From: Bacteroidota bacterium | GTDB lineage: Bacteria; Bacteroidota; Bacteroidia; NS11-12g; UBA955 | Assembly: GCA_016868785.1 (NCBI GenBank) | Contig: VGFS01000018.1 | Location: 1-41,256, forward strand | DNA length: 41,256 bases | Reading direction: 5' to 3' | Part shown: positions 6,262-23,152 of the stretch, piece after piece | Position numbering within the stretch: the first letter of the stretch is position 1 | Layout: each line of letters starts with the position of its first letter | The notes under the pieces: generated by a model | Databases searched by the model: none | Seen by the model: the letters and a program-made list of their open reading frames with translations, nothing else | Told to the model about the DNA's origin: nothing | Made by a program: the position numbers and the translations under genes

Positions 6262-7017
6262 TTATTTACCCGCTGGTGGTGGGATGTAATCCAAAGGAGG
6301 TTGTGTATTTGCGCTTGGCTTCTGACCAGGTACCACACTCTTTAGATCCACCTCAATCACCGTTACGCCATACATGTCATCGAAACTTCCCGCCATTCTC
6401 GCCAAACTGGGGAATTCTACATTCGACAAATAAACCTCAAACAATCCACCCGCAGCCGTCTTCTGGAAAGCCTCTTCCAAAGGGGCCAAATTCAAACTTG
6501 TGATGTTATTAACGAATGGCTTGTTATCCTTGCGATTGTCCTGAAACACCTTACCCTTGCCATTCTTGATGATAAAATAACAAGTAACTGTATCATAAAT
6601 GCCGGGAATCGCACCCGTGCCCTTTTTCAACTCCTTGTAATAACCCTTGCTTGCCAACGGAGTTACACCCGCCTCTTTGCTCACTTTGGCCATCAAATCG
6701 TTGGTTTCTTTTTGCAAAACTTTGATTTTCTTGTCCTGTACCCCCTGCACATAACCTTGATACACCTTGCCCATGTTCTCCTGCTTGATCGCCAATCCAC
6801 TGTCTTTGGCCATACCGTCCTTCACACCGCGAAGAAAGCTGCCAAAATCAATGCCGTCGATACCCTGCTGCTTCATGCGCTGCGCAGTTTCGTAGCCGTA
6901 AACATAACTAAATGAATCTTCTGAAGTCTTCAACTCCTTGCTCGTGTCGATCGATTCGCCACATCCGGCCAATAAGCCCAAGGCCAACACCGGTAAGTAT
7001 ATGATTTGCTTTTTCAT
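6262..7017 (-). CDS. FKBP-type peptidyl-prolyl isomerase-like lipoprotein
   Basis: A 251-residue lipoprotein with signal MKKQIIYLPVLALGLLAGC and lipid-anchored Cys19. Residues about 30-120 resemble the helical FKBP N-terminal dimerisation domain of FkpA/Mip (SYVYGYETAQRMKQQGI, FLRGVKDGM). Residues about 125-230 follow the FKBP fold: a GTG turn, then VFQDNRKDNKPFV, then PLEEAFQKTAAGG. The Tyr, Trp and IPP-type residues that line the FKBP catalytic pocket are not evident, so isomerase activity is doubtful and a chaperone role is as likely. The C-terminal tail is Pro-rich (PPLDYIPPPAGK). It lies 35 bases after the ABC-F gene on the same strand, probably one transcript. Confidence 0.8.
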   Translation of the reverse strand: MKKQIIYLPVLALGLLAGCGESIDTSKELKTSEDSFSYVYGYETAQRMKQQGIDGIDFGSFLRGVKDGMAKDSGLAIKQENMGKVYQGYVQGVQDKKIKVLQKETNDLMAKVSKEAGVTPLASKGYYKELKKGTGAIPGIYDTVTCYFIIKNGKGKVFQDNRKDNKPFVNNITSLNLAPLEEAFQKTAAGGLFEVYLSNVEFPSLARMAGSFDDMYGVTVIEVDLKSVVPGQKPSANTQPPLDYIPPPAGK

Positions 7018-7052
7018 TGTTTTTCTGTTCGATTATCGCCCAATGCCTTGCA

Positions 7053-9499
<2,447 letters not shown>

Positions 9500-9615: not shown

Positions 9616-10473
9616 ATGATCTTAGTAGCAGACAGCGGCAGTACCAAGTGCGACTGGGTATTCACAGACGGCGATTCACAGCGCCTTTCCTTCCATACAA
9701 TGGGTTTCAACCCCTTCTTTCACCCCACCGAGTTGATCGAAAGTGAAATTAGAAAAAATACACAACTCTGCGCGGTTGCACCCATGGTTGAACACGTATT
9801 TTTCTACGGCGCCGGTGCCAGTCACCCCGCCAGGAACATCATCCTGGAAAATGCCCTACGCGCTGTTTTCACCAAAGCAAAAGTGGTTGTAGATCACGAC
9901 CTAACCGGTGCAGTTTATGCTACCTGTGGCGATGAGCCCGGCATCTCTTGCATCCTCGGAACGGGCTCTAACAGTTGCTACTTCGACGGTAAAGACATCC
10001 ACGAAGAAGTGCCCGCCCTGGGTTATTTACTGGGCGATGAGGCCGGTGGAACGTTCTATGGCAAAGACCTGCTCCGTATGTTCCTCTACCATGAACTGCC
10101 CGAAAAAATCCACAACGGATTGATCGAGCGTTTCGGACTTACCAAAGAAAACATCTTTGAAGCCGTATACAACAAACCCAACCCCAACGTCTACCTCGCT
10201 TCGTTTATGCGTTTTCTCAGCGATAACCGCGATGAGAAATGGGTGCGCGATTTCATCTACAACGGATTCAGCAAATTCATCAACATCCACATCTGGAAAT
10301 ACGAACACCACCAAGAAGTCCCCGTGCATTTCGTGGGCTCTGTGGCCTTCCACTTCAGTGACTTGCTGAAAGAAGCGTGCAAAATTCACCGCCTCAATGT
10401 GGGTGTGATTACCAGCGAACCCGTAGTTAACTTGGTTGAATATCACCTGAGAAAACTGCAGGTTTCGGCATGA
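9616..10473 (+). CDS. BadF/BadG/BcrA/BcrD-family sugar kinase (N-acetylglucosamine kinase-like)
   Basis: A 285-residue protein of the ASKHA fold. The N-terminus MILVADSGSTKCDW is the phosphate-1 loop of the GlcNAc-kinase group. DHDLTGAVYA gives the likely catalytic Asp region, and ILGTGSNS is the phosphate-2 loop. GYLLGDEAGGTFYGKDLL matches the G-D-E-G-S/G motif of the family. It would transfer phosphate from ATP to a hexose or amino sugar in the cytoplasm. Since the next genes make glucose 1-phosphate and free glucose from a disaccharide, glucose is a plausible substrate, but GlcNAc cannot be excluded. The start at 9616 puts the phosphate loop at residue 7; an upstream TTG at 9583 lies within the promoter. 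The stop overlaps the pgmB start by 4 bases (ATGA). Confidence 0.88.
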   Translation: MILVADSGSTKCDWVFTDGDSQRLSFHTMGFNPFFHPTELIESEIRKNTQLCAVAPMVEHVFFYGAGASHPARNIILENALRAVFTKAKVVVDHDLTGAVYATCGDEPGISCILGTGSNSCYFDGKDIHEEVPALGYLLGDEAGGTFYGKDLLRMFLYHELPEKIHNGLIERFGLTKENIFEAVYNKPNPNVYLASFMRFLSDNRDEKWVRDFIYNGFSKFINIHIWKYEHHQEVPVHFVGSVAFHFSDLLKEACKIHRLNVGVITSEPVVNLVEYHLRKLQVSA

Positions 10474-11111
10474 AAACCGCAATCATCCTCGATCTCGACG
10501 GGGTAATCTGCGATACCGCCCACTTTCATTTTTTGGCTTGGCAGCGTTTGGCCGCCGAATACGGCTATGCACTCACCCACGCCGATAACGAGCAACTTAA
10601 AGGCGTGAGCAGGGTCGACTCCCTCAAATTCATACTTTCATTGGCCAACAAAACGTTGTCCGCCGAGCAATTCGAAACCGATTTGCACCGCAAAAACGAG
10701 TGGTATTTGGAGTTGGTGAAAGACATGGGCCCGAGCGATACCCTGCCAGGTGTTACCGCGTTTTTCGCGGAGGTTGCCGCCCGACATATCCCCTTGGCCC
10801 TGGGATCCGCCAGTAAAAATGCAAACATGGTTTTATCGCGTGTAGGACTGCTTCAAGCGTTTGATGCCATCGTGGATGCATCTCAAGTTAGCCAGGGAAA
10901 ACCCCACCCCGAAACATTCCTGAAGGCCGCCGAACTGTTGGGCATCGCCCCGGAAAATTGCCTCGTATTCGAAGACAGTGCTGCGGGTGTCCAAGCCGCC
11001 ATCGCCGGAGGAATGAAAACCATTGGCATAGGCACACCAAACGATTTACCCGGCGCCATTTTGCACCTGCGCGACCTTGGCGAATTCGATTTCAATCGCC
11101 TACCCGCCTAA
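10470..11111 (+). CDS. pgmB: Beta-phosphoglucomutase
   Basis: A 213-residue HAD-superfamily enzyme. The DxDG motif is at residues 8-11 (LDLDGVICDT): Asp8 would be the phosphorylated nucleophile and Asp10 the general acid/base. LKGVSRVDSL in the cap is the signature that separates beta-phosphoglucomutases from other HAD phosphatases. GSASKNA is motif II, GKPHPETF contains the motif III Lys, and FEDSAAGVQAA is motif IV. It converts beta-glucose 1-phosphate to glucose 6-phosphate, exactly the step needed after an inverting GH65 phosphorylase, which is encoded 106 bases downstream. The start codon overlaps the kinase stop, which implies translational coupling. Confidence 0.95.
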   Translation: MKTAIILDLDGVICDTAHFHFLAWQRLAAEYGYALTHADNEQLKGVSRVDSLKFILSLANKTLSAEQFETDLHRKNEWYLELVKDMGPSDTLPGVTAFFAEVAARHIPLALGSASKNANMVLSRVGLLQAFDAIVDASQVSQGKPHPETFLKAAELLGIAPENCLVFEDSAAGVQAAIAGGMKTIGIGTPNDLPGAILHLRDLGEFDFNRLPA

Positions 11112-11217
11112 AACACCCTCGTTTGTTCTCGCAACATCACAATGAGTAAATCGCAAAACAACCCCTGATTTTTAACCCAATTTCAACCGTACTTTTACCA
11201 TATTAATCCTACCCACC

Positions 11218-13563
11218 ATGATCGACTACTTCAAAGCCCACCCCTGGAAAGTCATCGAAGAAGGCTTCAACCCGGCCATGAACGAAATCGCAGAGAGTGT
11301 TTTTTCTTTGGGTAATGGCATGATGGGACAGCGAGGCAATCTCGAAGAGAGTTTTAGCGGACACTCCTTGCAAGGTACCTATGTTGGTGGGGTGTACTAT
11401 CCCGACAAAACACGTGTAGGGTGGTGGAAGAATGGATACCCTGAATACTTTGCCAAAGTACTCAATGCCACCTATTGGAGTGGGTTGCGCATTTGGATCA
11501 ACAACGAACTGCTGGATTTGGCCCAGGTAACGGTAAAATCGTTCACCCGTGAGCTCGACATGCACCAAGGTGTGTTGAACCGCCATTGTGTTGTGGTCCT
11601 AAAGAATGGCATCGAACTCACCATAGAGTCGCACCGATTCTATTCGCTCATCAACAAAGAATATGGCGCCCTTCAATACAACATCACGACAAACACCGCT
11701 TGTGTAGTGAAAGTTGAGAATTACCTCGATGGCGATGTGGCCAACAAGGATTCGAACTACGAAGAAAAATTCTGGGATGAAGTAAAGCAAGAAGTGCACA
11801 ACCACGATTTGTTGGTGACGGTAAAAACCAAAAAACTAAATTGGATGGTAACCAATGTCCTCTCGTTTGAGATTTGGAAAAACGCCATTAAATACAACGA
11901 AATTGCCAAACCCTTCACCCGCAGCAAATTCGCGAGCAACACCTATGAAATTGCTGTGGCCGCTGCCGAGAAACTCACATTGGTAAAGCACTGCATCACC
12001 GGCAGCAGCTTCCACCATGCGCCCGAAGCGCTGGAATTGTACACCAAAAAAGCACTCGATAAAATGAGTGCCTCCAGTTTTGAAGCACACCTGCAAATGA
12101 GCGCCGCCGCATGGGCGAAAAAGTGGGAAACCACCGACGTTCGCATCGATGGCGATGTGAAAGCCCAGCAAGCCGTGCGTTTCAACATCTATCACCTCAA
12201 CCAAACCTACTGTGGCGATGACGCCAGACTAAACATTGGCCCAAAAGGATTTACCGGAGAGAAATACGGAGGAAGCACCTATTGGGATACCGAGGCCTAT
12301 TGCCTGCCCTTCTTCCTGGTCTCCGCCGATGCCGCCATCTCTCGCCAGCTGCTCGTTTATCGCTACAAACAGCTGGGAAAAGCCATTGAAAATGCTGCGA
12401 AATTGGGCTTTACCGACGGGGCAGCCCTCTACCCCATGGTTACAATGAACGGGGAAGAATGCCACAATGAATGGGAAATTACCTTCGAAGAGATTCACCG
12501 CAACGGAGCCATCGCCTATGCCATTTATAATTACATCCAACATACCGGCGATCAACAATACCTCCTCGAAGGAGGGTTTGAAGTGCTGTTGGGTATCTCA
12601 CGTTTTTGGAAACAACGCGTTCATTGGAGTGGCATCAAACAACGCTACGAAATGCACGGCGTAACAGGCCCCAACGAATACGAAAATAACGTAAACAACA
12701 ACTGGTATACGAGTTACATCGCCAATTGGTGCATGCAATATACCGCCGAATGCGCAGAATGGATCAAATCAAACCACCCTGCCGCATGGGCCGAAATTAG
12801 ACAAAAAACACAGTTTCAAGCTGATACAGAAATCGCCGATTGGAATCACATCCACGCCAATTTGTATCTTCCTCAAGACGATTCACTGGGCGTTTTCGTT
12901 CAACACGATGGCTTCCTGGAAAAAGAACTCATCCCCGTCAAAGACTTGTCGCCAGCACAACAACCCATCAACCAAAAATGGAGCTGGGACCGCATTCTGC
13001 GCAGTGTTTACATCAAACAAGCCGATGTACTGCAAGGCCTTTACTTTTTTGAGGACAACTTCGACTACGGTACCCATGTGCGAAACTTCAAATTCTACGA
13101 ACAGTTCACCGTGCATGAAAGTTCTTTGAGTCCCTGTGTCCATAGCATTTTGGCAGCCAAAATTGGGGAGACCGACAAAGCCTACGAAATGTATTTGCGC
13201 ACCGCCCGATTGGATTTGGACAATTACAACAACGATACCGAAGATGGTTTGCATATCACCTCGATGGCGGGGTCGTATTTGAGTATCGTTCAAGGCTTCG
13301 GTGGTTTGCGCATCAAAAACCAAACCTTGTATCTGAATCCCCACTGTCCATCACAATGGGAAGGCTACGGTTTCCATATTTTGCTCAACAACGAGCCCGT
13401 AAAAATCGAAGTCACCAAAGCCGGACATCACATCACCAATTTGGGTAGCCAAGACATTACGGTTTACCTGAATCAGGGCAATCCAACACAGGGTAGCGAC
13501 CATACAGCGCAAGCATCTGCACTTCATTTGAAGTCGGGAGAAGAAAAATTCACAGCGCACTAA
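11218..13563 (+). CDS. Glycoside hydrolase family 65 disaccharide phosphorylase (maltose phosphorylase type)
   Basis: A 781-residue cytoplasmic enzyme with the GH65 layout. An N-terminal beta-sandwich (ESVFSLGNGMMGQRGN) and a linker precede an (alpha/alpha)6 barrel with GGSTYWDTEAYCLPFFL and HGVTGPNEYENNVNNNWYT. A small C-terminal sheet ends the protein. The first Glu of GPNEYEN is residue 487, the same number and context as the catalytic acid of Lactobacillus brevis maltose phosphorylase (from memory). It would split an alpha-glucosyl disaccharide with phosphate into glucose and beta-glucose 1-phosphate. Trehalose, kojibiose or nigerose phosphorylases share this fold, so the substrate is not certain. 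pgmB and a sugar kinase lie upstream, giving a complete route to glucose 6-phosphate. A 7/8 match to the -7 element (TACTTTTA) lies about 30 bases upstream of the start. Confidence 0.93.
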   Translation: MIDYFKAHPWKVIEEGFNPAMNEIAESVFSLGNGMMGQRGNLEESFSGHSLQGTYVGGVYYPDKTRVGWWKNGYPEYFAKVLNATYWSGLRIWINNELLDLAQVTVKSFTRELDMHQGVLNRHCVVVLKNGIELTIESHRFYSLINKEYGALQYNITTNTACVVKVENYLDGDVANKDSNYEEKFWDEVKQEVHNHDLLVTVKTKKLNWMVTNVLSFEIWKNAIKYNEIAKPFTRSKFASNTYEIAVAAAEKLTLVKHCITGSSFHHAPEALELYTKKALDKMSASSFEAHLQMSAAAWAKKWETTDVRIDGDVKAQQAVRFNIYHLNQTYCGDDARLNIGPKGFTGEKYGGSTYWDTEAYCLPFFLVSADAAISRQLLVYRYKQLGKAIENAAKLGFTDGAALYPMVTMNGEECHNEWEITFEEIHRNGAIAYAIYNYIQHTGDQQYLLEGGFEVLLGISRFWKQRVHWSGIKQRYEMHGVTGPNEYENNVNNNWYTSYIANWCMQYTAECAEWIKSNHPAAWAEIRQKTQFQADTEIADWNHIHANLYLPQDDSLGVFVQHDGFLEKELIPVKDLSPAQQPINQKWSWDRILRSVYIKQADVLQGLYFFEDNFDYGTHVRNFKFYEQFTVHESSLSPCVHSILAAKIGETDKAYEMYLRTARLDLDNYNNDTEDGLHITSMAGSYLSIVQGFGGLRIKNQTLYLNPHCPSQWEGYGFHILLNNEPVKIEVTKAGHHITNLGSQDITVYLNQGNPTQGSDHTAQASALHLKSGEEKFTAH

Positions 13564-13626: not shown

Positions 13627-13634
13627 TATTTTTG
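13627..13634 (+). promoter_or_regulatory. -7 promoter element before the SGNH-MBOAT operon
   Basis: TATTTTTG, an exact TAnnTTTG match, 7 bases before the TTG at 13642. No clear TTG is seen at -33. If used, the message would be almost leaderless. Confidence 0.45.
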
Positions 13635-13641
13635 CCCCACT

Positions 13642-14691
13642 TTGGCGGACAACGAAGATCAAATCACCCCTGACAGCCCCGAGGCGACGTCCGCGAAGTT
13701 GAATTCCATTTCTTCCTCGGATGAACACGCGCGCGTCTCAGATGGCGAAAAACAACCCAAAAGCAGTGCAACACCCCACGAAAAATCATCCCCTTGGCTG
13801 ATTATCTGGGCTGGATTGAGTATTTCTTTGCCCTTATTGCTGCTGTACATATATAGCTGTAGTCCACAAACCCTAAAACTGGGACAGTTAGAACTCAAAC
13901 AAATTTTGGGCAATCAAGACATCGATGCCATGCTGGCCGCCTTGGACGAACCTGAACCGGTTCCGGTCAAAGTTACCCACGACAGTACATCAAACCTAGC
14001 GAGGGATTCCGCCGACTTTACCCCTGCCTTTGGAGGAACTATACCCATCTTGAATAAAAACTACCATCAACCTTTTGTCTTACCGCCCTACGAATTACCC
14101 GTATTTGCTGACACCACCAAACACCGCATACTCCTCATTGGTGATTCTGAAAGTGGTGGCTTGCGGTATCCGTTGAATGATTATTGTTTGGCGAATGGAC
14201 ATAAAATCATCCTTTCGTTGGAATGGTATTCCGCGACCACATTCAATTTTGGCAGGTCCGATACCATTCAGAAGATCATTGCCAAATACAAGCCCACCTA
14301 CATATTTTTGGTGTTTGGGTTGAATGAATTGTACGCCCGCGATTTAAAGGCCCGCAAAATTGCCGCCAACCAGCTGGCAAAAAAATTACGCGGCATCCCC
14401 TACGCATGGATCGGACCTGCCAACTGGGAGGAAGACAATGGCATCAGCAAAGTATTCCAATCATCGGCCGATTCCGGCGCTTATTTCCTGACAAAAAAGC
14501 TGACCCTTACCCGTGCCGGAGATGGTCGTCACCCGGATGTTCAAGGTTACAGGGTTTGGATGGATAGCATCGCAACTTGGATACAAACTTCTTCGCGATA
14601 CAAAATGCTCATGAAGCCGCCGCGCAAGCGCGGCCGGCCTTTCCGTGCCCCCGTCATCACCATTAATGCAGCCAATTACCGTGGATATTAA
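13642..14691 (+). CDS. Membrane-anchored SGNH hydrolase-like protein (acyl-transfer partner of MBOAT)
   Basis: About 349 residues. A polar, low-complexity N-terminus (Ser/Glu-rich) is followed by one membrane anchor at about residues 52-75 (WLIIWAGLSISLPLLLLYIY) and a linker. An SGNH domain follows: ILLIGDSESGG with Ser169, VFGLNE as the Asn block, and DGRHP with D294 and H297. That gives a Ser-Asp-His triad facing the periplasm. It overlaps the MBOAT gene by 26 bases, so it is likely the periplasmic partner that moves acyl groups onto an envelope polymer, as AlgX, PatB and DltD do in other systems. There is no ATG before the anchor, so the start is a TTG at 13642 or 13621; I prefer 13642 because 13621 lies within the promoter. 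The tail (RKRGRPFRAP) is encoded by a GC palindrome. Confidence 0.75.
   Translation: MADNEDQITPDSPEATSAKLNSISSSDEHARVSDGEKQPKSSATPHEKSSPWLIIWAGLSISLPLLLLYIYSCSPQTLKLGQLELKQILGNQDIDAMLAALDEPEPVPVKVTHDSTSNLARDSADFTPAFGGTIPILNKNYHQPFVLPPYELPVFADTTKHRILLIGDSESGGLRYPLNDYCLANGHKIILSLEWYSATTFNFGRSDTIQKIIAKYKPTYIFLVFGLNELYARDLKARKIAANQLAKKLRGIPYAWIGPANWEEDNGISKVFQSSADSGAYFLTKKLTLTRAGDGRHPDVQGYRVWMDSIATWIQTSSRYKMLMKPPRKRGRPFRAPVITINAANYRGY
14619..14634. repeat. GC palindrome inside the 3' end of the SGNH gene
   Basis: Arms GCCGCGC/GCGCGGC flank AA, so the effective loop is CAAG. It encodes a basic tail (PPRKRGRP) beyond the SGNH domain. The loop differs from the TGC-loop palindromes. Confidence 0.5.
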
Positions 14692-16177
14692 TTGGTTGAA
14701 TCAACTGTTTGCCCCTTTGCGTGATCCCAAAACATGGGAATCAGCCTTCGGATATTCTACCAAAGAACCCTGGTTCTTCACCGAATTTACCTTCTTGGCT
14801 GTGTTTGGCGTATTCCTCGTTTTTTATGCCGCCCTCGTCCAAAAGAATACCTGGCGAAAAATCTACCTCATCTCTTTCTCCCTGTTTTTCTATTACAAAT
14901 CGAGCGGACCTTTCCTTGGGCTATTCGCGCTGATGATTCTGTCCGATTACCTCTTTGCCCTGGCCATAGAAAAACAAAAAGGCATCAAAAAGAAGGTTTT
15001 ACTTTGGTTATCGCTCAGTTATAGCCTCAGTTTTCTGCTGTACTTCAAATACGCCAACTTCTTCATTCACAATTGCAATGACCTGCTCGGCACTCACTTC
15101 ACCGACCGCGATTTGTTCTTGCCCATTGGCATTTCTTTCTACACGTTCCAATCAATCAGTTACCTGATGGACGTCTACCGGAAAGAAATCCCCGCCACCC
15201 GCAATGTGAGCGATTACGCCTTCTACATGACCTTCTTCCCCCACCTAGTGGCAGGTCCCATTGTTCGTGCCAAAGACTTCCTTCCCCAAATTTTCACCCC
15301 ACAAATCATCAATGCCTCGCTCTACAAAGAGAGTTTACTGCGCATTCTGACCGGTTTATTGAAAAAATTGTTCATCGCCGATTACTTGGGAAAATACGTT
15401 GACATCGTTCATGAGCTGCCTGCCAATTTCTCCGGTGCTGAAAATGTATTGGCCATGTACGCCTACAGTTTTCAGATTTATTTCGATTTCTCGGGATACT
15501 CAGACATTGCCATCGGCATTGCACTGATGTTGGGGTACCGACTCAAAGAAAACTTCGACAACCCCTATGCCTCGAGCAACATCACGGTTTTTTGGCGGAA
15601 ATGGCACATTTCACTCAGCAGTTGGCTCCGCGATTACATCTACATCCCTCTGGGGGGCAACCGCAAAGGCGAATTCAACACCTATCTATTCCTCCTCATC
15701 ACAATGTTGGTGGGTGGATTTTGGCACGGAGCCGATTGGCGATTTATTTTCTGGGGACTGTCGCACGGTCTCGCATTGGCCTTCCACAAAGCGTGGATGC
15801 AATTGTTCCCATCCAAATCTACACGTTGGTATAGCCAAGTATTCGGCACCATTCTCACCTTCCATTTTGTTGGTTTCTGTTGGATATTCTTCCGCGCCAC
15901 CTCCTTTGGCTCAGCATTTGCTAGCATTGAACAAATTGCCTTCCACACCCAATGGAAAGACTTTGCAGGATTTTGGATATCGCGACAAGAAATGGCCATC
16001 ATGATATTGGTGGCAGCCTTCATCGCGTTCTTCCCTCCCCAACTCAAAGAACGCATCTTCCAAAAAACACAAGTATTGCCCACCTTCACTTGGATTCTCT
16101 GGGTTCTCATTGCACTTCAAATCATCATCCAATTCAAGGACGATGTTGTACAGCCCTTCATCTACTTCCAGTTCTGA
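14666..16177 (+). CDS. MBOAT-family membrane O-acyltransferase (AlgI/PatA-like)
   Basis: A 503-residue polytopic membrane protein with about 10-12 hydrophobic segments. The diagnostic MBOAT elements are YTFQSISYLMDVYR, FFPHLVAGPIVRAKDFLPQ, FSGYSDIAIGIALMLGY, WRKWHISLSSWLRDYIYIPL with His314, and GGFWHGADWRFIFWGLSHG with His354, the likely catalytic His. Such proteins pass an acyl group, usually acetyl, from the cytoplasm across the membrane to a periplasmic SGNH partner. Here such partners are encoded on both sides, overlapping by 26 bases and by 1 base. I chose ATG 14666; a GTG at 14645 would add 7 residues. The acceptor polymer could be peptidoglycan, a capsule or an exopolysaccharide. Confidence 0.93.
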   Translation: MQPITVDINWLNQLFAPLRDPKTWESAFGYSTKEPWFFTEFTFLAVFGVFLVFYAALVQKNTWRKIYLISFSLFFYYKSSGPFLGLFALMILSDYLFALAIEKQKGIKKKVLLWLSLSYSLSFLLYFKYANFFIHNCNDLLGTHFTDRDLFLPIGISFYTFQSISYLMDVYRKEIPATRNVSDYAFYMTFFPHLVAGPIVRAKDFLPQIFTPQIINASLYKESLLRILTGLLKKLFIADYLGKYVDIVHELPANFSGAENVLAMYAYSFQIYFDFSGYSDIAIGIALMLGYRLKENFDNPYASSNITVFWRKWHISLSSWLRDYIYIPLGGNRKGEFNTYLFLLITMLVGGFWHGADWRFIFWGLSHGLALAFHKAWMQLFPSKSTRWYSQVFGTILTFHFVGFCWIFFRATSFGSAFASIEQIAFHTQWKDFAGFWISRQEMAIMILVAAFIAFFPPQLKERIFQKTQVLPTFTWILWVLIALQIIIQFKDDVVQPFIYFQF

Positions 16178-18111
16178 TGAAGTTGAAACACTGTTGTATA
16201 AATCCACTCACCTTATTCTTTCTGGCAGTTTGTGCCATCATTCAGCCTATACAAGCCCAACAAGGATCGAATCCACCCGCAGAAGGATCAGGCAATCCCG
16301 CAGCAAGATTGGGGAGGCCCGCCGGAAACCCCCAAAATCCTACCCATCAAAATTCAACGATTGAACCCTTCAACAACGACGTTCACGAAGATAGTTCCAT
16401 CATTTGTCTTACCTGCAACGAGTTGCAAGAATCGCCAAAGCTTAAAAAGGCGTTGCAAAAATTGCACAATGTTCGGGTGAACAACCTCCCCTACATCGTA
16501 GCGGCCTATCCCAACCAATTGGCCAACCAACCAATCAAAAAACCGGCCCTCCCACCCGTGAGAAACATGGCCAAAACCGGCAAAAATGGTACCAATACCA
16601 ACCAAACTGGCATCAACCCTGCAGATACGCTCTTTACCATCATTCACATTGGTGATAGCCACATTCAGGGTGATTATTTCTCGGGGGAAATACGCATGCA
16701 ACTGCAGTCCGTATTTGGAAACGCTGGCCGCGGAATCCTCTTTCCCTATGCCTTGGCAAAGAGTTTTGGTCCCAGAGGCGTATCGGTAAAACCATTGGGC
16801 GTGTGGACCGGATACAAAACACTCACAGGCAACCTCACAGAACCCCTGGGAGTATCTGGGTATGGCGCGAGCACCCAAACGGTGGGATCGAGCATACAAG
16901 TGTCGCTCTCAGAAAAATTCAAGGAAGAAAATGCGCTCGGACAGTTTAGCATCCCTGAGTTTCAAAAAGTCAACATTTGGCATTCTGCGGACAATGCTTC
17001 TTTCGTCACGCAACTGAATCCAGAATTCCAATGGACAGGCAGCCAATTCTATTCTTCGGGTTGGGGTGTTAGCTCCTATTTGGCCCCCGAAGCACAGAGT
17101 ACATTCACCCTTTCCTTGGCCGCAAACTCGCCTACCCAAAACCACTTTGGATTTTATGGTTTTGAAATCATTCCGATGCAACAACGCGGCGTTGTTTACC
17201 ACCATTGTGGGGTTGTTGGGGCGCAATTCACGCACCTGATCAACAAAGCGCCGTATACCGTTGAGCAAATTGCACACATAAAACCAGACATCCTGATTTT
17301 TTCTTTCGGCACAAACGAAGCGTACAACGGAAAACTCGACAGCCAGGTATATACCCCCGCCGTGATGAAATTTCTGTCTGATATCGCCGTGGCAAGTCCC
17401 ACCACCGCCATCATTATCACCACGGCCCCAGATACCCGCAGTCGCAATCGCATCCCTCCGCAACAGAAAAATGTAAACAACCAACTGCGTAAAATCGCCA
17501 AGAACCAGAAAGCCACCGTGTACGATTTAAACGAAGCGATGGGCGGATGGGGATCGCTGCATGTTTGGTACAACAACAAACTGACCCTCACAGACAAACT
17601 ACACTTCAATGCGGCGGGTTATGCGTTGCAAGGACAGCTTTTCACGTTGTCGCTGCTACAAGCCTACAACAAAGCAAACAGCAAGGACACCCTGAATATT
17701 CAAGGATTGAGAACGGTAGTCCACAACAGCATGATATCATTGGTTCGGAATTTCGAGGCGGTTTCGATGGGCGATTCTTTGTCGGGCGATACCCAAGCAG
17801 CCAACCGCAAGGTTGACAGTACCGGACTTACCACCATGGCCGTTCACGTGGATACAACCCATGCCCCCAACCGGGTAACAACCGTTCCACAACGCAGCAA
17901 CCAGCCGGCAAGAAATAGGCCGACGACCCAAACGAACAGCAGCCCCCGGACACAGCGCGGCGAAATCACCCATATCGTAAAATCTGGAGAGAATTTATAC
18001 CGAATTGCGCAACGCTACCATGTAACCCATGAAGCCATTGCCCGACGGAATAATCTCACCAACCCCAGGAGTTTAAGACCCGGACAGCGGTTGGTGATCC
18101 CATCCCTTTAA
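16177..18111 (+). CDS. Secreted SGNH hydrolase with C-terminal LysM domain
   Basis: A 644-residue protein with a signal peptide (LTLFFLAVCAIIQPIQAQ) and an Asn/Pro-rich linker to about residue 140. An interrupted SGNH domain follows: IHIGDSHIQG with Ser161, FSFGTNEAYNG with Asn380, and DKLH with D473 and H476. About 200 residues of beta-rich insertion separate the Ser and Asn blocks. After a low-complexity linker comes one LysM domain (about 598-642: THIVKSGENLYRIAQRYHV, LRPGQRLVIP). LysM binds peptidoglycan glycan strands, so this enzyme probably acts on the cell wall, adding or removing O-acetyl groups. The ATG at 16177 shares one base with the MBOAT stop (TGATGA). The frame is open upstream to 15952, but that part is an antiphase shadow of MBOAT. 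Confidence 0.88.
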   Translation: MKLKHCCINPLTLFFLAVCAIIQPIQAQQGSNPPAEGSGNPAARLGRPAGNPQNPTHQNSTIEPFNNDVHEDSSIICLTCNELQESPKLKKALQKLHNVRVNNLPYIVAAYPNQLANQPIKKPALPPVRNMAKTGKNGTNTNQTGINPADTLFTIIHIGDSHIQGDYFSGEIRMQLQSVFGNAGRGILFPYALAKSFGPRGVSVKPLGVWTGYKTLTGNLTEPLGVSGYGASTQTVGSSIQVSLSEKFKEENALGQFSIPEFQKVNIWHSADNASFVTQLNPEFQWTGSQFYSSGWGVSSYLAPEAQSTFTLSLAANSPTQNHFGFYGFEIIPMQQRGVVYHHCGVVGAQFTHLINKAPYTVEQIAHIKPDILIFSFGTNEAYNGKLDSQVYTPAVMKFLSDIAVASPTTAIIITTAPDTRSRNRIPPQQKNVNNQLRKIAKNQKATVYDLNEAMGGWGSLHVWYNNKLTLTDKLHFNAAGYALQGQLFTLSLLQAYNKANSKDTLNIQGLRTVVHNSMISLVRNFEAVSMGDSLSGDTQAANRKVDSTGLTTMAVHVDTTHAPNRVTTVPQRSNQPARNRPTTQTNSSPRTQRGEITHIVKSGENLYRIAQRYHVTHEAIARRNNLTNPRSLRPGQRLVIPSL

Positions 18112-18145: not shown

Positions 18146-18178
18146 AACGGGGGCTTGCGCTGCGCGCAAGCCCCCGTT
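18146..18178. terminator. Bidirectional terminator, 33-base perfect palindrome with TGC loop
   Basis: 15-bp perfect arms around TGC at 18161-18163. A run of seven A precedes it (U-tract for the minus strand) and a T-rich stretch with TTTTTT follows within 10 bases. It lies between the convergent SGNH-LysM gene and a T9SS cargo gene, so it should serve both. Confidence 0.85.
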
Positions 18179-18215: not shown

Positions 18216-20117
18216 TTAATGAGCCACTTGTAATCCCAAAGAAGAAATTCCTTCCTTAGATTTCAAACGAACCGTGTACAATCCCTCCGCTAAATTAGCC
18301 GTAGGAATCACAATGACCTGATCGCCGTTCACCGCAGTGAAAGTCTGGCTGTAAACCTCTCTACCCAAAGCATCTACCAATAGTACCTCCAAATTGGCCT
18401 CTACACCATTGAACTTAACCATCACCTGCTCGCTAGCGGGGTTTGGCATCATGCTCAAATTCATTAAGGTCTGCGCACGCGTTCCCACATTGGTCACCTT
18501 TACGTCGAAGTACATTGTGTCTGATTTACATGGAGGGTTGTTGGCAACCAACATCACCTTGTAAGTACCGTCTGCACTGAAAGTGTAAGTAGGCTTAGGT
18601 TGGAAGCTCTCATTACCATCGCTGTAATTCCAATAAACATTCGCCGCGTTGCTACCCGTGAATTCAAATTGGAATTTGCGACCGCCCAAACTGGTGTATT
18701 TGTATGCATTGATTGGCTTCAACACCCCGTAAACGGTCTTGGTTTTGATGGTTTCACAACCCGCGTTGTTCTTCACTGATACCTGATAACTAGAACTAGC
18801 TCCTTTCGCCTTTGCAAAAGTGGTATTCGTGGTTGACCCATTACTCCATGCATAGGTATAGGTCTGTGGAGGACCGCCTACTGGCGCTACGGTGGCTGTC
18901 AATTGAACAGAATCACCCTCGCACACCATCGTGTCGCTGGCAGTCAATGTTACGTTCGGACCATTTTGCACCTGCACCGTTACGTTGCGCTGACCTGTGC
19001 AACCCTTGTCATCAATACCGGCTACCGTGTAAATTGTAGAAGCAGTTGGCAAAGCATAAATGGTATCACCCGTATTGGAACTCAATCCGGTGGTTGGCGT
19101 CCAACTATATGTCAACGCTCCACTTGCTACCAATTTCACCCCAGTAGTTGCACCCGCACACAACGTCGCATTTGCAGGCGTAACCGTAATGGTTGGTGGT
19201 GTTGCTGTATTGTCGATCCAAATACGAATACAATTCGAAGTATCTGATTGTCCGCTGTTTGCACAAGTTACTATCGCACGAATATAACGGTACGTACCAA
19301 TGGCCGCGCTAAAGTTACCCGTATTCACGTTGGTTGTCCAAGTATTGGTTGTAAAGGTGTTTGAATCGGTAGAAGTTTGATACTTCAACGAAATGCCTGT
19401 AGACGCCGTATTTCCTGCCAAGGTAACGGTTGATGGACCTATTGCACCACAAACATAATAGGTAGACGCACTCAAAGTACCTGCATTGGGTTTGCCCTCA
19501 CAAAAGGTCGGATAAGCATCCCAAGTAACACTGTCGATGAAAATGTTACCGCCATTCGCACCACCGCGTGCAGTGGCCTGAATCAAGAAATAGTTGGTGG
19601 TTCCGGTGAACGTTGAAGGAATTGCAAATGAATATTTGTACCATCCATGAGCTACAGAATCTGGGTAAGTCTTCTTCGCGTAACGCGTAATACCACCCAA
19701 ACGCTTGGCACCCGTTAAACTGCGTATGGTGTTGAACCAAACAGTTACAGAATCATCGGTATTGTAAACCGTGTCACGGAACATGTATAAAGAGATGTAA
19801 GTGTTGGCGCTGCCACGCTTGCTCAAATCAATCACTGGCGATCCCAAAGACTGGGTTCCACCTGCGGTTGCGCCGCGTGAAGAAAAACGAGCCATTCCGG
19901 CGCCACCAAAAGGAGTACATGCAGGCATAGTACCTGCGGTGGCCGTAGTACGGCGCGACCAAGTAGGGGCACCAAATCCACCTCCACCCACAGTTTGCCA
20001 ACCAGCAGGTGGAAAAGCCGTGCCCTCAAAACCCTGTCCTGTTACAGTTTGTGCCATCAAATCTGAACCTAAAAAGGCCAGACCCAACGACATTGCATAA
20101 GTAATTATTTTTTTCAT
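18216..20117 (-). CDS. T9SS cargo protein with cleaved-adhesin/MAM-like and Ig-like domains
   Basis: A 633-residue secreted protein. The signal peptide (MKKIITYAMSLGLAFLGSDLMAQ) is followed by a cleaved-adhesin/MAM-like jelly roll at about 26-205 (GFEGTAFPPAGW, then SLGSPVIDLSKR). Several Ig/PKD-like domains come next, including LCAGATTGVKLVASGALTYSW and VCEGDSVQLTATV, and a PKD with WNYSDGNESFQPKPTYTF. The end is a type A sorting domain (MMPNPASEQVMVKF, then LAEGLYTVRL). The sorting domain directs outer-membrane crossing by T9SS and is then removed. No catalytic domain is visible; adhesion is the likely role. It starts 18 bases after the stop of the other T9SS gene on the same strand, so the two are probably co-transcribed. 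Confidence 0.88.
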   Translation of the reverse strand: MKKIITYAMSLGLAFLGSDLMAQTVTGQGFEGTAFPPAGWQTVGGGGFGAPTWSRRTTATAGTMPACTPFGGAGMARFSSRGATAGGTQSLGSPVIDLSKRGSANTYISLYMFRDTVYNTDDSVTVWFNTIRSLTGAKRLGGITRYAKKTYPDSVAHGWYKYSFAIPSTFTGTTNYFLIQATARGGANGGNIFIDSVTWDAYPTFCEGKPNAGTLSASTYYVCGAIGPSTVTLAGNTASTGISLKYQTSTDSNTFTTNTWTTNVNTGNFSAAIGTYRYIRAIVTCANSGQSDTSNCIRIWIDNTATPPTITVTPANATLCAGATTGVKLVASGALTYSWTPTTGLSSNTGDTIYALPTASTIYTVAGIDDKGCTGQRNVTVQVQNGPNVTLTASDTMVCEGDSVQLTATVAPVGGPPQTYTYAWSNGSTTNTTFAKAKGASSSYQVSVKNNAGCETIKTKTVYGVLKPINAYKYTSLGGRKFQFEFTGSNAANVYWNYSDGNESFQPKPTYTFSADGTYKVMLVANNPPCKSDTMYFDVKVTNVGTRAQTLMNLSMMPNPASEQVMVKFNGVEANLEVLLVDALGREVYSQTFTAVNGDQVIVIPTANLAEGLYTVRLKSKEGISSLGLQVAH

Positions 20118-20135
20118 GGTTAATTGTTTGTCTAT

Positions 20136-22898
20136 TTATCGTTTTGAATCCACCACCAAGAAAGTTCCTTGGCGGATCATATTTCTAAATCCTGAAACCG
20201 TTTCATCGAAAGTCACGTTCACAATGTACACATACATACCCGTCATCACCGGTTCATCCATGTACAATCCATTCCAGGGTTCGGTGATAGGTCGTCTATC
20301 AAATACACACTCACCCCAACGGTTGTAAACACTCCAAGTACCCCTTTTAACCGCGCAGGGCTTGCCCCAGTCATCCACAAACATGGGCTTTACCTCATCA
20401 TTTATGCCTTGGGATGAGAATGGACTAAACGCTGTGGGCATCCACATCTTGCAATCGCAGCGAATGGCATTGACTTTTACTGTATCTCGGCGCTCGCCAC
20501 AAGCATTGTACGTATGCAAACTGTAATTTCCAGATTGAGACACATTCAAATTGCCTGTTTTGGCGCCCGTATTCCACAAATATTTGCTGTATCCCGAAAA
20601 TTGTGCCCCTTTCAATGTATAACTCACACCGCCACAGAACCATTCCTCTGCAACCAAACGCTTTTCGGGAATCGTATCCTTGTAAATGTAAAAGGTATCG
20701 GTTCTAACCCCACAATCGTTGGTCATTGTCAACCAAAATTTCCCTGTACCCATGATCACCCGCTGCGGAGAACCCGTCAAATCATCCCATTGGTAACCCT
20801 TCACATCCGGATGCGTCATATCCAAATTCCATGCGAATATACTACTGCAAAATGTGGTATCCTTCACCCGACTTTTGGTGGGAGGCAATTTGATTTTGAT
20901 GTTAAAGGTATCATACGCCACCCCGCACAAATTGGTTACAGTAAGAGTCGCCGTCATAGAAGAATTGAACGTTTTTGGCACCATTGTATCACCATCCAAC
21001 CATGTATACAAACTGGCGGGCACTTTGGGAAAATCCACCACGATGTTCTTGCCAACACAAACCCCTGTATCCTTAATTTTAGGTGCCACAGGCGGCAGTA
21101 ACAATTTAAACCGCACGCTATCCACACGACTTCCGCAGGCATTTCTCGTATCCAACCAATAAACTCCTGGCTTGGTAAAAGTCCGCGTCGATAGCGTACT
21201 TCCATTGTCCCAAACGTATTTACAAAATGGCTGCGCCACATCAATGGTATAGTTAAAAGGACTCTTACAAAACAGAGTATCTTTCAAATTGGGCTTTACC
21301 GGAGCCGAGGCCTTACCCACGATTACCGTGTCTTTGCGCGTTCCACAGGCATTGGTGCTGTTCACTATATAAGTACCCTCAACAGTGAATGTTCTGGAAG
21401 GGGATGTATTTCCATCCGACCAAGAATAACTCTCCGCCAATGCTTGCGTTGCATCGGTGGATACACTGGTGGTGGATGGACACATAACCAATGGCGAGGT
21501 CACCACCTTAATGGGCATCGGACAGACCTGTGTGCAGTTCACCGCTTGGTTGATATACAATGAAGTTGTATCAAAATTCACGATAGCAAGATCACCGAAA
21601 CTACTCTCTGTGTATCCTGTGGATGCAGCCCATGTCCAAGTTAATGCCGTATTGTTCACCGTAGATGTAGACGTTCCACAGTTGGTGTTACACGGACTGT
21701 TGATCATGAAATTGTTGTGTACACCCGCTGAATTATCTACGCCAATGGCCACCATACCTCCTTTGGGCATAGGCACAAAGGACCGCATGAAACCCGCCAA
21801 TGCGAAGTTTGTGTTTCCGTTCGATAAAATCTTCTGCGTTTGTGTGGTTGCGCCCGTTGCCGTATCGATTTGGACCAACAATTCCCGGTTATTGGCAAAA
21901 GTTTGATAAGTTGAACTCACCCACAACGACCCGCCCTCGAGGATCAGATGCTGCCCCGTCTCATTCACATTATTCGCACCAATGCTGCGTGTCCATTTCC
22001 GGGTTCCATCTGCCGTAAAGGCGCAGACTAAGATTTGTGCCGTCAAATTCGCACCAGAAGTTCCCACGGTATAAATCGTACCACCTGGAGCTACCAACAC
22101 ATGGCCAAATTGATTAATACCATTGCTCGTTCCTTTCCAAAGACTGCGCAGGGTTCCGTCGGTTTTCACATACGCTGCAAATGGATATGTTTGCGTGGAT
22201 CTGCACCAACCTGTAATTACCCACTCACCGCCTACCCTTGCTACGCCCCAACCATGGTGCTCGTTGTTGCCCATGTCTAGGTTTAATGTCCATTTGGTAA
22301 CACCGTTGCTATCCAATTGGGCTGCAATCAAATTGCGCTTTCCAGTTAACTGAGCACCTGTCCCCACCACCACGATGGTATTGGCATCGTAAACCAACAC
22401 ATGGTTAAATACATCGCCCTGACCGTTTCTATTCGAACTCGGGGTTTCTCTCGTCCATTTCAATTGCCCGCCTGGGGTAAAATAACTCACCGTGGCAAGC
22501 GCGGCATTTACCGAACCCACAACACTTGAACCTACCGCAACCGCCCCTCCCGATGGAGTGGTAGCTACGTCGTTGATGATCTCATTTGAACCAGTCCCTT
22601 TCACACCGTAGCGTATGGCACCCACAAATTTCCCGGTGTCATCGTACTTCATGAGCCATCCATCGCCGTGATTCGCCCCGTTCACCGTTCCGTATCCAGC
22701 CACCCAAAAACCTTTGGAGCGATTCGACACGGCCATGGTATTCCAAGAGCTAAACTGTCGGGTACCCACAACCTTTTCTGTGAGCGTAAAGTATTGTCGC
22801 TTAATGAATGGATAACAAATTTGTCCATTCAAACCCACGATACTTAAAAATACCATAATAGATACTAATGTATTTTTACATTGGCTAAAAATTTTCAC
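20136..22898 (-). CDS. T9SS type B cargo: beta-propeller plus five Cys-containing PKD-like repeats
   Basis: About 920 residues. The N-terminal region of about 400 residues has repeated strands of the type W-L-M-K-Y-D-x-x-G, A-A-Q-L-D-S-N-G-V-T-K-W and V-C-A-F-T-A-D-G-T-R-K-W, as in beta-propellers. Next come five tandem units of about 75-85 residues, each with an early Cys and ending in N-x-C-G-x-x-x-D-T/S (NACGTRKDT, NACGSRVDS, NLCGVAYDT, NDCGVRTDT, NACGERRDT). The end is a gliding-motility-type CHU_C domain (MPTAFSPFSSQGIND, VYNRWGECVFD, WNGLYMDEPVMTGMYVY), which marks type B T9SS cargo kept at the cell surface. I chose the GTG at 22898 because it gives a compact signal peptide; a TTG at 22934 would add 12 basic residues. 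Confidence 0.85.
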   Translation of the reverse strand: MKIFSQCKNTLVSIMVFLSIVGLNGQICYPFIKRQYFTLTEKVVGTRQFSSWNTMAVSNRSKGFWVAGYGTVNGANHGDGWLMKYDDTGKFVGAIRYGVKGTGSNEIINDVATTPSGGAVAVGSSVVGSVNAALATVSYFTPGGQLKWTRETPSSNRNGQGDVFNHVLVYDANTIVVVGTGAQLTGKRNLIAAQLDSNGVTKWTLNLDMGNNEHHGWGVARVGGEWVITGWCRSTQTYPFAAYVKTDGTLRSLWKGTSNGINQFGHVLVAPGGTIYTVGTSGANLTAQILVCAFTADGTRKWTRSIGANNVNETGQHLILEGGSLWVSSTYQTFANNRELLVQIDTATGATTQTQKILSNGNTNFALAGFMRSFVPMPKGGMVAIGVDNSAGVHNNFMINSPCNTNCGTSTSTVNNTALTWTWAASTGYTESSFGDLAIVNFDTTSLYINQAVNCTQVCPMPIKVVTSPLVMCPSTTSVSTDATQALAESYSWSDGNTSPSRTFTVEGTYIVNSTNACGTRKDTVIVGKASAPVKPNLKDTLFCKSPFNYTIDVAQPFCKYVWDNGSTLSTRTFTKPGVYWLDTRNACGSRVDSVRFKLLLPPVAPKIKDTGVCVGKNIVVDFPKVPASLYTWLDGDTMVPKTFNSSMTATLTVTNLCGVAYDTFNIKIKLPPTKSRVKDTTFCSSIFAWNLDMTHPDVKGYQWDDLTGSPQRVIMGTGKFWLTMTNDCGVRTDTFYIYKDTIPEKRLVAEEWFCGGVSYTLKGAQFSGYSKYLWNTGAKTGNLNVSQSGNYSLHTYNACGERRDTVKVNAIRCDCKMWMPTAFSPFSSQGINDEVKPMFVDDWGKPCAVKRGTWSVYNRWGECVFDRRPITEPWNGLYMDEPVMTGMYVYIVNVTFDETVSGFRNMIRQGTFLVVDSKR

Positions 22899-23152
22899 AG
22901 CTTTTTTGTACTTTTTTGTAAATATAGACGACAAAACACCTCTTTTCGTTCACTAACGATCAAAAAAGTTTTGCCACATTGAGGCAAAATACAAAAATGA
23001 TTCCCACCCCCAAAAAAAAATACTTTTTTTTATTCCTGTGCTTTCCAGCTTCTTGGCAATTTTCGCCAATCTTCCTCGGAGGGCACACTGCCATTTGGTG
23101 ATTACGTTCCAAATTGCCGACCTTTACATTTTGAAAATCCTCTCGTAAGACA

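Follow-up and report, generated by a model that had tools for sequence, protein, structure and literature searches.

A PatB-like, PatA-like and Ape1-LysM gene cassette as a likely peptidoglycan O-acetylation operon of uncultured Bacteroidota

Introduction

What does a gene set do in which a single MBOAT is bracketed by two SGNH proteins, one tethered to the membrane and one secreted with a LysM domain? Such a cassette lies at positions 13642–18111 of the window, the whole 41,256-nucleotide stretch of Bacteroidota DNA analysed here. The closest precedents are the O-acetyl-peptidoglycan (OAP) clusters defined in 2005 by Weadge and Clarke, which occur in the orders pat-ape2-ape1a, ape1b-ape1c-pat, and ape2 with ape1b upstream of pat (PMC1199599); later work identified ape2 as the transferase PatB (PMC6174289). 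The order ape1b-ape1c-pat, with two SGNH genes and one MBOAT, is that of Bacteroides and Porphyromonas, and the third of these arrangements is that of Zymomonas (PMC1199599). Bacteroides species with OAP clusters O-acetylate their peptidoglycan, at 69% in B. fragilis and 27% in B. thetaiotaomicron (PMC1199599). Here we examine the three proteins, their conservation and their relation to the known systems.

Results

The cassette consists of a single-TM SGNH protein (SGNH1; 13642..14691, plus strand), an MBOAT of 503 aa (14666..16177, plus strand) and a secreted SGNH protein of 644 aa with LysM (SGNH2; 16177..18111, plus strand). A direct check of the open reading frames found this set, with its 26- and 1-base overlaps, exactly as an earlier note on this DNA had described it: SGNH1 ends at 14691, inside an MBOAT gene that starts at 14666, and the MBOAT stop ends at 16177, where the ATG of the SGNH2 gene begins. 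The start of SGNH1 is uncertain, because the only in-frame candidates are TTG codons (13621, 13642 and 13699) and there is no ATG. No outstanding sigma-70-like promoter was found, and a TATTTTTG box at 13627 represents no more than chance expectation. Directly 3' of the cassette lies a terminator-like hairpin (18146..18178, plus strand; 15-bp stem with 11 GC pairs, followed by a T-run), a pattern match only. Directly upstream on the same strand (10470–13563), a HAD hydrolase gene (beta-phosphoglucomutase-like) is followed by a GH65 phosphorylase/hydrolase gene, a pair that adjoins the cassette in close relatives only; on the minus strand at 18216–22934 are genes for two large secreted proteins that bear sorting domains for type IX secretion (Por_Secre_tail, CHU_C).

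SGNH1 is present in 18 genomes from four genera of its own family (among 58 relatives), and a scan that took a single genome from each species recovered 36 named loci carrying it, 35 of them in Bacteroidota MAGs, many labelled Flavobacteriales. The order SGNH1-MBOAT-Ape was retained in all 35 Bacteroidota loci; two of these (L078 and L079) are truncated within the MBOAT by a contig end, and in the other 33 all three genes are represented at least in part. The remaining locus, from Ignavibacteria (L107), has the order SGNH1-Ape-MBOAT. The earlier note had named a search for this order across Bacteroidota as a check and a lack of conservation as grounds for rejecting its reading; the order is conserved in every Bacteroidota locus recovered. 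Flanking genes are common to close relatives and differ in more distant ones and between genera, indicating that the cassette itself is the unit and that an arrangement constant across 35 loci with varying flanks is not a matter of chance. This subunit has a narrow range: of 396 genomes sampled across the phylum, SGNH1 was found in 2, that of the window and a single further one.

The central protein matches the MBOAT family (PF03062, E 4e-31) and DltB structures (E 1e-43). It contains a catalytic-type histidine (His354), together with His314, and its C-terminus reads FIYFQF (16157..16174, plus strand), which fits the FxYxxF acyl-tyrosine shuttle motif with Tyr500 as the tyrosine. PatA proteins end similarly, with FIYSSF in C. 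jejuni and FIYANF in N. gonorrhoeae; the PatA tyrosine is auto-acetylated from acetyl-CoA, and both the conserved histidine and the C-terminal motif are required (PMC12148441). Tyr500 and His354 were invariant in the 33 aligned rows, an alignment that omits one decayed copy (L097), two more that are truncated at a contig end and another that is split; the shuttle tyrosine was lost only in the decayed copy. Phylogenetic analysis placed the window's protein among MBOATs encoded beside DUF459/PatB or Ape-like genes and apart from those partnered with DHHW proteins, in a tree with several poorly resolved inner forks. By sequence, the protein appears to be a PatA-like MBOAT of the bacterial acyl-tyrosine type.

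SGNH2 has a hydrophobic, signal-like N-terminus, a split SGNH domain with a beta-rich insert, and a C-terminal LysM domain (residues 599–642, 17971..18102, plus strand; PF01476, E 2.6e-15). Both GDSL and LysM families were matched, and the SGNH motifs comprise S161, N380, D473 and H476, so that the catalytic triad assigned earlier (S161, D473, H476) is correct. These four residues and G345/G348 are invariant in 29 orthologues, with the block II glycine in its canonical, esterase-type form. Against Ape1 of N. meningitidis (4k3u), SGNH2 scored an E value of 3.5e-21 by phmmer and 2e-41 as a profile. The AlphaFold2 (AF2) model (mean pLDDT 73) places a beta-rich module at residues ~201–332 (16777..17172, plus strand) inside the SGNH domain. 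The triad-splitting insert of 200 residues described by the earlier note is this module, which has ~130 residues and lies within the 184 residues between S161 and block II. When the model was searched against the PDB with Foldseek, Ape1 chains took all of the top five places (E 1.7e-20 to 8e-18, TM 0.67–0.78 on target), and the next match followed at 7e-7. The best was 4k3u (E 1.7e-20, TM 0.77–0.78 on target, over ~350 residues), and C. jejuni Ape1 (8gkd) scored 2.7e-18. This uniform top group and the gap below it identify the insert as the counterpart of the Ape1 carbohydrate-binding module, classed as CBM35 in the literature (PMC12148441). The LysM residues are likewise invariant in the 29 orthologues, and this domain is an addition relative to the Ape1 structures; no description of an Ape1 bearing LysM was found in the literature searched, mostly outside subscription journals. 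By modelled fold and by sequence, SGNH2 is an Ape1-type peptidoglycan O-acetylesterase.

SGNH1 is predicted to consist of a cytoplasmic N-terminus, one TM-like segment (residues 50–73; helix 51–73 in the AF2 model), a disordered linker, an SGNH domain (residues ~160–316) and a conserved C-terminal strand and tail (338–349). Its motifs are GDS169, GLN228E and D294xxH297, with block I GDSE encoded at 14140..14151 (plus strand), and the membrane-anchored SGNH protein anticipated for this position is borne out. Ser169, Asn228, Asp294 and His297 are invariant in 37 of 37 sequences. In 36 of these, block II has a serine (Ser197 in the window protein). In PatB of N. gonorrhoeae, the usual block II glycine is replaced by Ser161, 28 residues past Ser133 (PMC12148441), and Ser197 stands at the same +28 spacing from Ser169, an equivalence drawn from sequence alignment only. 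SGNH1 shares with PatB the Ser-Asp-His triad, the block III asparagine, the N-terminal membrane anchor and a serine at block II.

Family assignment is less direct. Pfam equates DUF459 with the PatB family (PMC9487903), and the window's SGNH1 matched no Pfam family, DUF459 included; 11 of the 37 sequences touched this family, the best at 26.9 bits, below the cut-off of 27.2. Elsewhere in the phylum, DUF459 matches were mostly small GDSL-type proteins, and only two loci (L110 and L111) had a strong match beside an MBOAT. Profile comparison by hhalign preferred PatB over Ape, Ape1b and DHHW, weakly, at 48% probability and with a profile of 2 sequences; the idea of a shortened Ape1b was not supported (hhalign probability <1%). 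Sequence and profile searches of the PDB with SGNH1 returned no PatB entry. Predicted structures of both SGNH proteins had been proposed as a check, and the SGNH1 model gave only generic matches: nothing in the PDB fell below 1e-3 by Foldseek, the matches were Rossmann/flavodoxin-like, and a GDSL lipase appeared at rank 15, so the model does not decide between SGNH families. No ALGX or DHHW Pfam domain was detected in SGNH1 or SGNH2 by a test that does detect DHHW in two relatives (L055 and L071).

SGNH1 is also ~40 residues shorter than PatB between blocks III and V, and Arg296 precedes the catalytic His297 where the hydrophobic wall of PatB has Ile/Val. The C-terminal tail NAAxYRGY (14665..14688, plus strand), which follows the predicted strand and overlaps the MBOAT start, is kept in 36 of 37 orthologues. 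Overlap alone is no explanation for this conservation, because the tail is also kept where the two genes do not overlap. Taken together, SGNH1 appears most like PatB; we call it PatB-like by role and do not count it as a member of the PatB family, given the DUF459 score below cut-off, the ~40 missing residues and the arginine before the catalytic histidine. A further reading, which we hold to be unlikely, sees SGNH1 not as a PatB but as a class of its own among the transferases that partner MBOATs, confined to its lineage. Docking on the MBOAT would then rely on the conserved C-terminal strand and the NAAxYRGY tail, which would stand in for the wing hairpins of PatB, and the acyl group carried or the acceptor site used might differ as well.

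Catalytic residues in the orthologues, whose loss the earlier note had listed as evidence against its reading, are near-invariant, with one decayed copy (L097, 5980–9826) as the exception. There, the MBOAT lacks the WHG histidine motif and its shuttle tyrosine (the C-terminus reads FITHLF) and SGNH1 lacks the block II serine; the SGNH1 triad and the Ape gene frame are still intact. Joint loss of the histidine motif, the shuttle tyrosine and the block II serine is what a decayed system should show.

Other genomes of the window's family carry MBOAT-DHHW-Ape1-LysM or SGNH-SGNH-MBOAT, the latter order being found in relatives L060 and L062–L066. One genome (G023) holds both SGNH1-MBOAT-Ape1-LysM (L054, G023:C23) and MBOAT-DHHW-Ape1-LysM (L071, G023:C21), which suggests two acetylation systems that have separate esterases. 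The genome of the window itself contains a second MBOAT (L053, G000:C44; 6572–8053) ending in HPFVYFQF and overlapped by a 487-aa frame (7969–9432) with no Pfam match; the two are a possible second acylation pair. The same genome also encodes a further Ape1-like protein, which carries LysM repeats (L052, G000:C1:105000-119000; 6671–8482), with no MBOAT beside it and a gatB-like gene before it.

Discussion

Directly observed sequences, motifs, conservation and synteny, together with the fold match of SGNH2, make it likely that the cassette is an OAP-type operon in the order patB-like, patA, ape1-LysM, its products taking the PatA, PatB and Ape1 roles. As in the definition of OAP clusters, a patA-type gene adjoins at least one ape/patB gene, here with overlapping genes and a conserved order. 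The closest counterpart is the PatA-PatB-Ape1 operon of Neisseria and Campylobacter, which likewise has adjacent genes, one MBOAT with the histidine and a C-terminal FxYxxF, a membrane-tethered SGNH transferase-like protein and an Ape1 esterase with a CBM35-type insert. The two differ in order (patA-patB-ape1 there, patB-like-patA-ape1 here), in the C-terminal LysM of the cassette Ape1, and in SGNH1, which scores below the DUF459/PatB cut-off, is shorter than the PatB of those operons and has its own conserved C-terminal tail. The Bacteroides/Porphyromonas cluster comes from the same phylum and also combines two SGNH genes with one MBOAT; however, its MBOAT is last rather than central and both of its SGNH proteins are Ape1-type, whereas SGNH1 is a short SGNH protein without insert. 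In Zymomonas mobilis (ape2/patB and ape1b upstream of pat), PatB is upstream of pat as in the cassette, and the Ignavibacteria order SGNH1-Ape-MBOAT may be compared with it, but in the window, as in every one of its Bacteroidota relatives, the MBOAT is the central gene. More broadly, DltB/DltD, AlgI/AlgJ/AlgX and PatA1/PatB1 (DHHW) follow a common logic of MBOAT–SGNH acyl transfer with an acyl-tyrosine step. Compared with these, the cassette lacks an AlgX/AlgJ or DHHW domain and has an Ape1 esterase, and its shuttle tyrosine sits on the MBOAT itself, unlike that of the DltB/DltD system, which is on DltX.

The order patB-like, patA, ape1-LysM was not found in the OAP literature examined. The earlier note had called the layout unfamiliar, and this holds only for how the genes are ordered, for the fusion of LysM to Ape1 and for the PatB-like subunit, which is divergent; one MBOAT with two SGNH proteins is already the make-up of PatA-PatB-Ape1 operons and of the clusters in PMC1199599. 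The cassette is best seen as the known PatA/PatB/Ape1 operon in a rearranged form and not as a new kind of system.

Three elements of the proposed mechanism are taken over from relatives: that the acyl group is acetyl, that peptidoglycan accepts it, and which way each SGNH enzyme works. The MBOAT, in the PatA role, would take acetyl from cytoplasmic acetyl-CoA via its conserved histidine and load it onto Tyr500 of the C-terminal FIYFQF at the periplasmic face. Membrane-tethered SGNH1, in the PatB role, probably attaches acetyl groups to the cell wall; it would pick up acetyl on Ser169 and pass it to peptidoglycan, most likely to the C6 hydroxyl of MurNAc. Secreted SGNH2, held at the wall by LysM and the CBM35-like module, very probably removes acetyl groups again by hydrolysis, which would open peptidoglycan to lytic transglycosylases; three SLT-type lytic transglycosylase genes are present in the same genome. 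This division of labour largely agrees with the earlier proposal of cell-wall O-acylation with transfer assigned to one SGNH protein and removal to the other: SGNH2 is Ape1-type by fold and sequence, and the traits of SGNH1 are transferase-like.

Since MBOAT–SGNH pairs act on several polymers (PMC12148441) and PatB membership of SGNH1 is not proven, the same enzymes might instead modify another envelope polymer, a surface or periplasmic polysaccharide, as in the acetylation of alginate, cellulose or secondary wall polymers. We regard this as improbable, given that SGNH2 is an Ape1 by fold and bears LysM, that no polysaccharide synthesis genes lie inside the cassette or directly adjoin it while its flanks vary, and that the MBOAT is separated in the tree from DHHW-partnered ones. 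An arrangement modelled on alginate acetylation, where two SGNH proteins and one MBOAT also work together (PMC9487903), would have SGNH1 and SGNH2 relay one acylation step, like AlgJ and AlgX, with no dedicated esterase; yet neither protein matches the AlgX/AlgJ families and SGNH2 combines an esterase-type block II with an Ape1 fold, making such a relay very improbable.

To an exchange of roles, with SGNH2 as the transferase and SGNH1 as an esterase or regulator, we give almost no credence: SGNH1 is the membrane-tethered protein with a transferase-like block II, and the wall-binding modules on SGNH2 are typical of an esterase. What speaks for the exchange comes from Bacteroides, whose clusters pair an MBOAT with two Ape1-type SGNH proteins and no named PatB (PMC1199599), so that in those clusters transfer may fall to an Ape1-type protein. 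The preferred reading of the cassette remains transfer by SGNH1 and removal by SGNH2.

On this reading, uncultured Flavobacteriales-type bacteria possess a defined unit of three genes for O-acetylating the wall and for reversing that step. The transferase subunit that accompanies a PatA-type MBOAT and an Ape1-LysM esterase varies: it is PatB-like in this cassette, and close relatives have a DHHW or an Ape1-like protein in its place. With its private tail, the divergent PatB-like protein offers a natural test of partner recognition between MBOAT and SGNH proteins, and is the part most worth following up.
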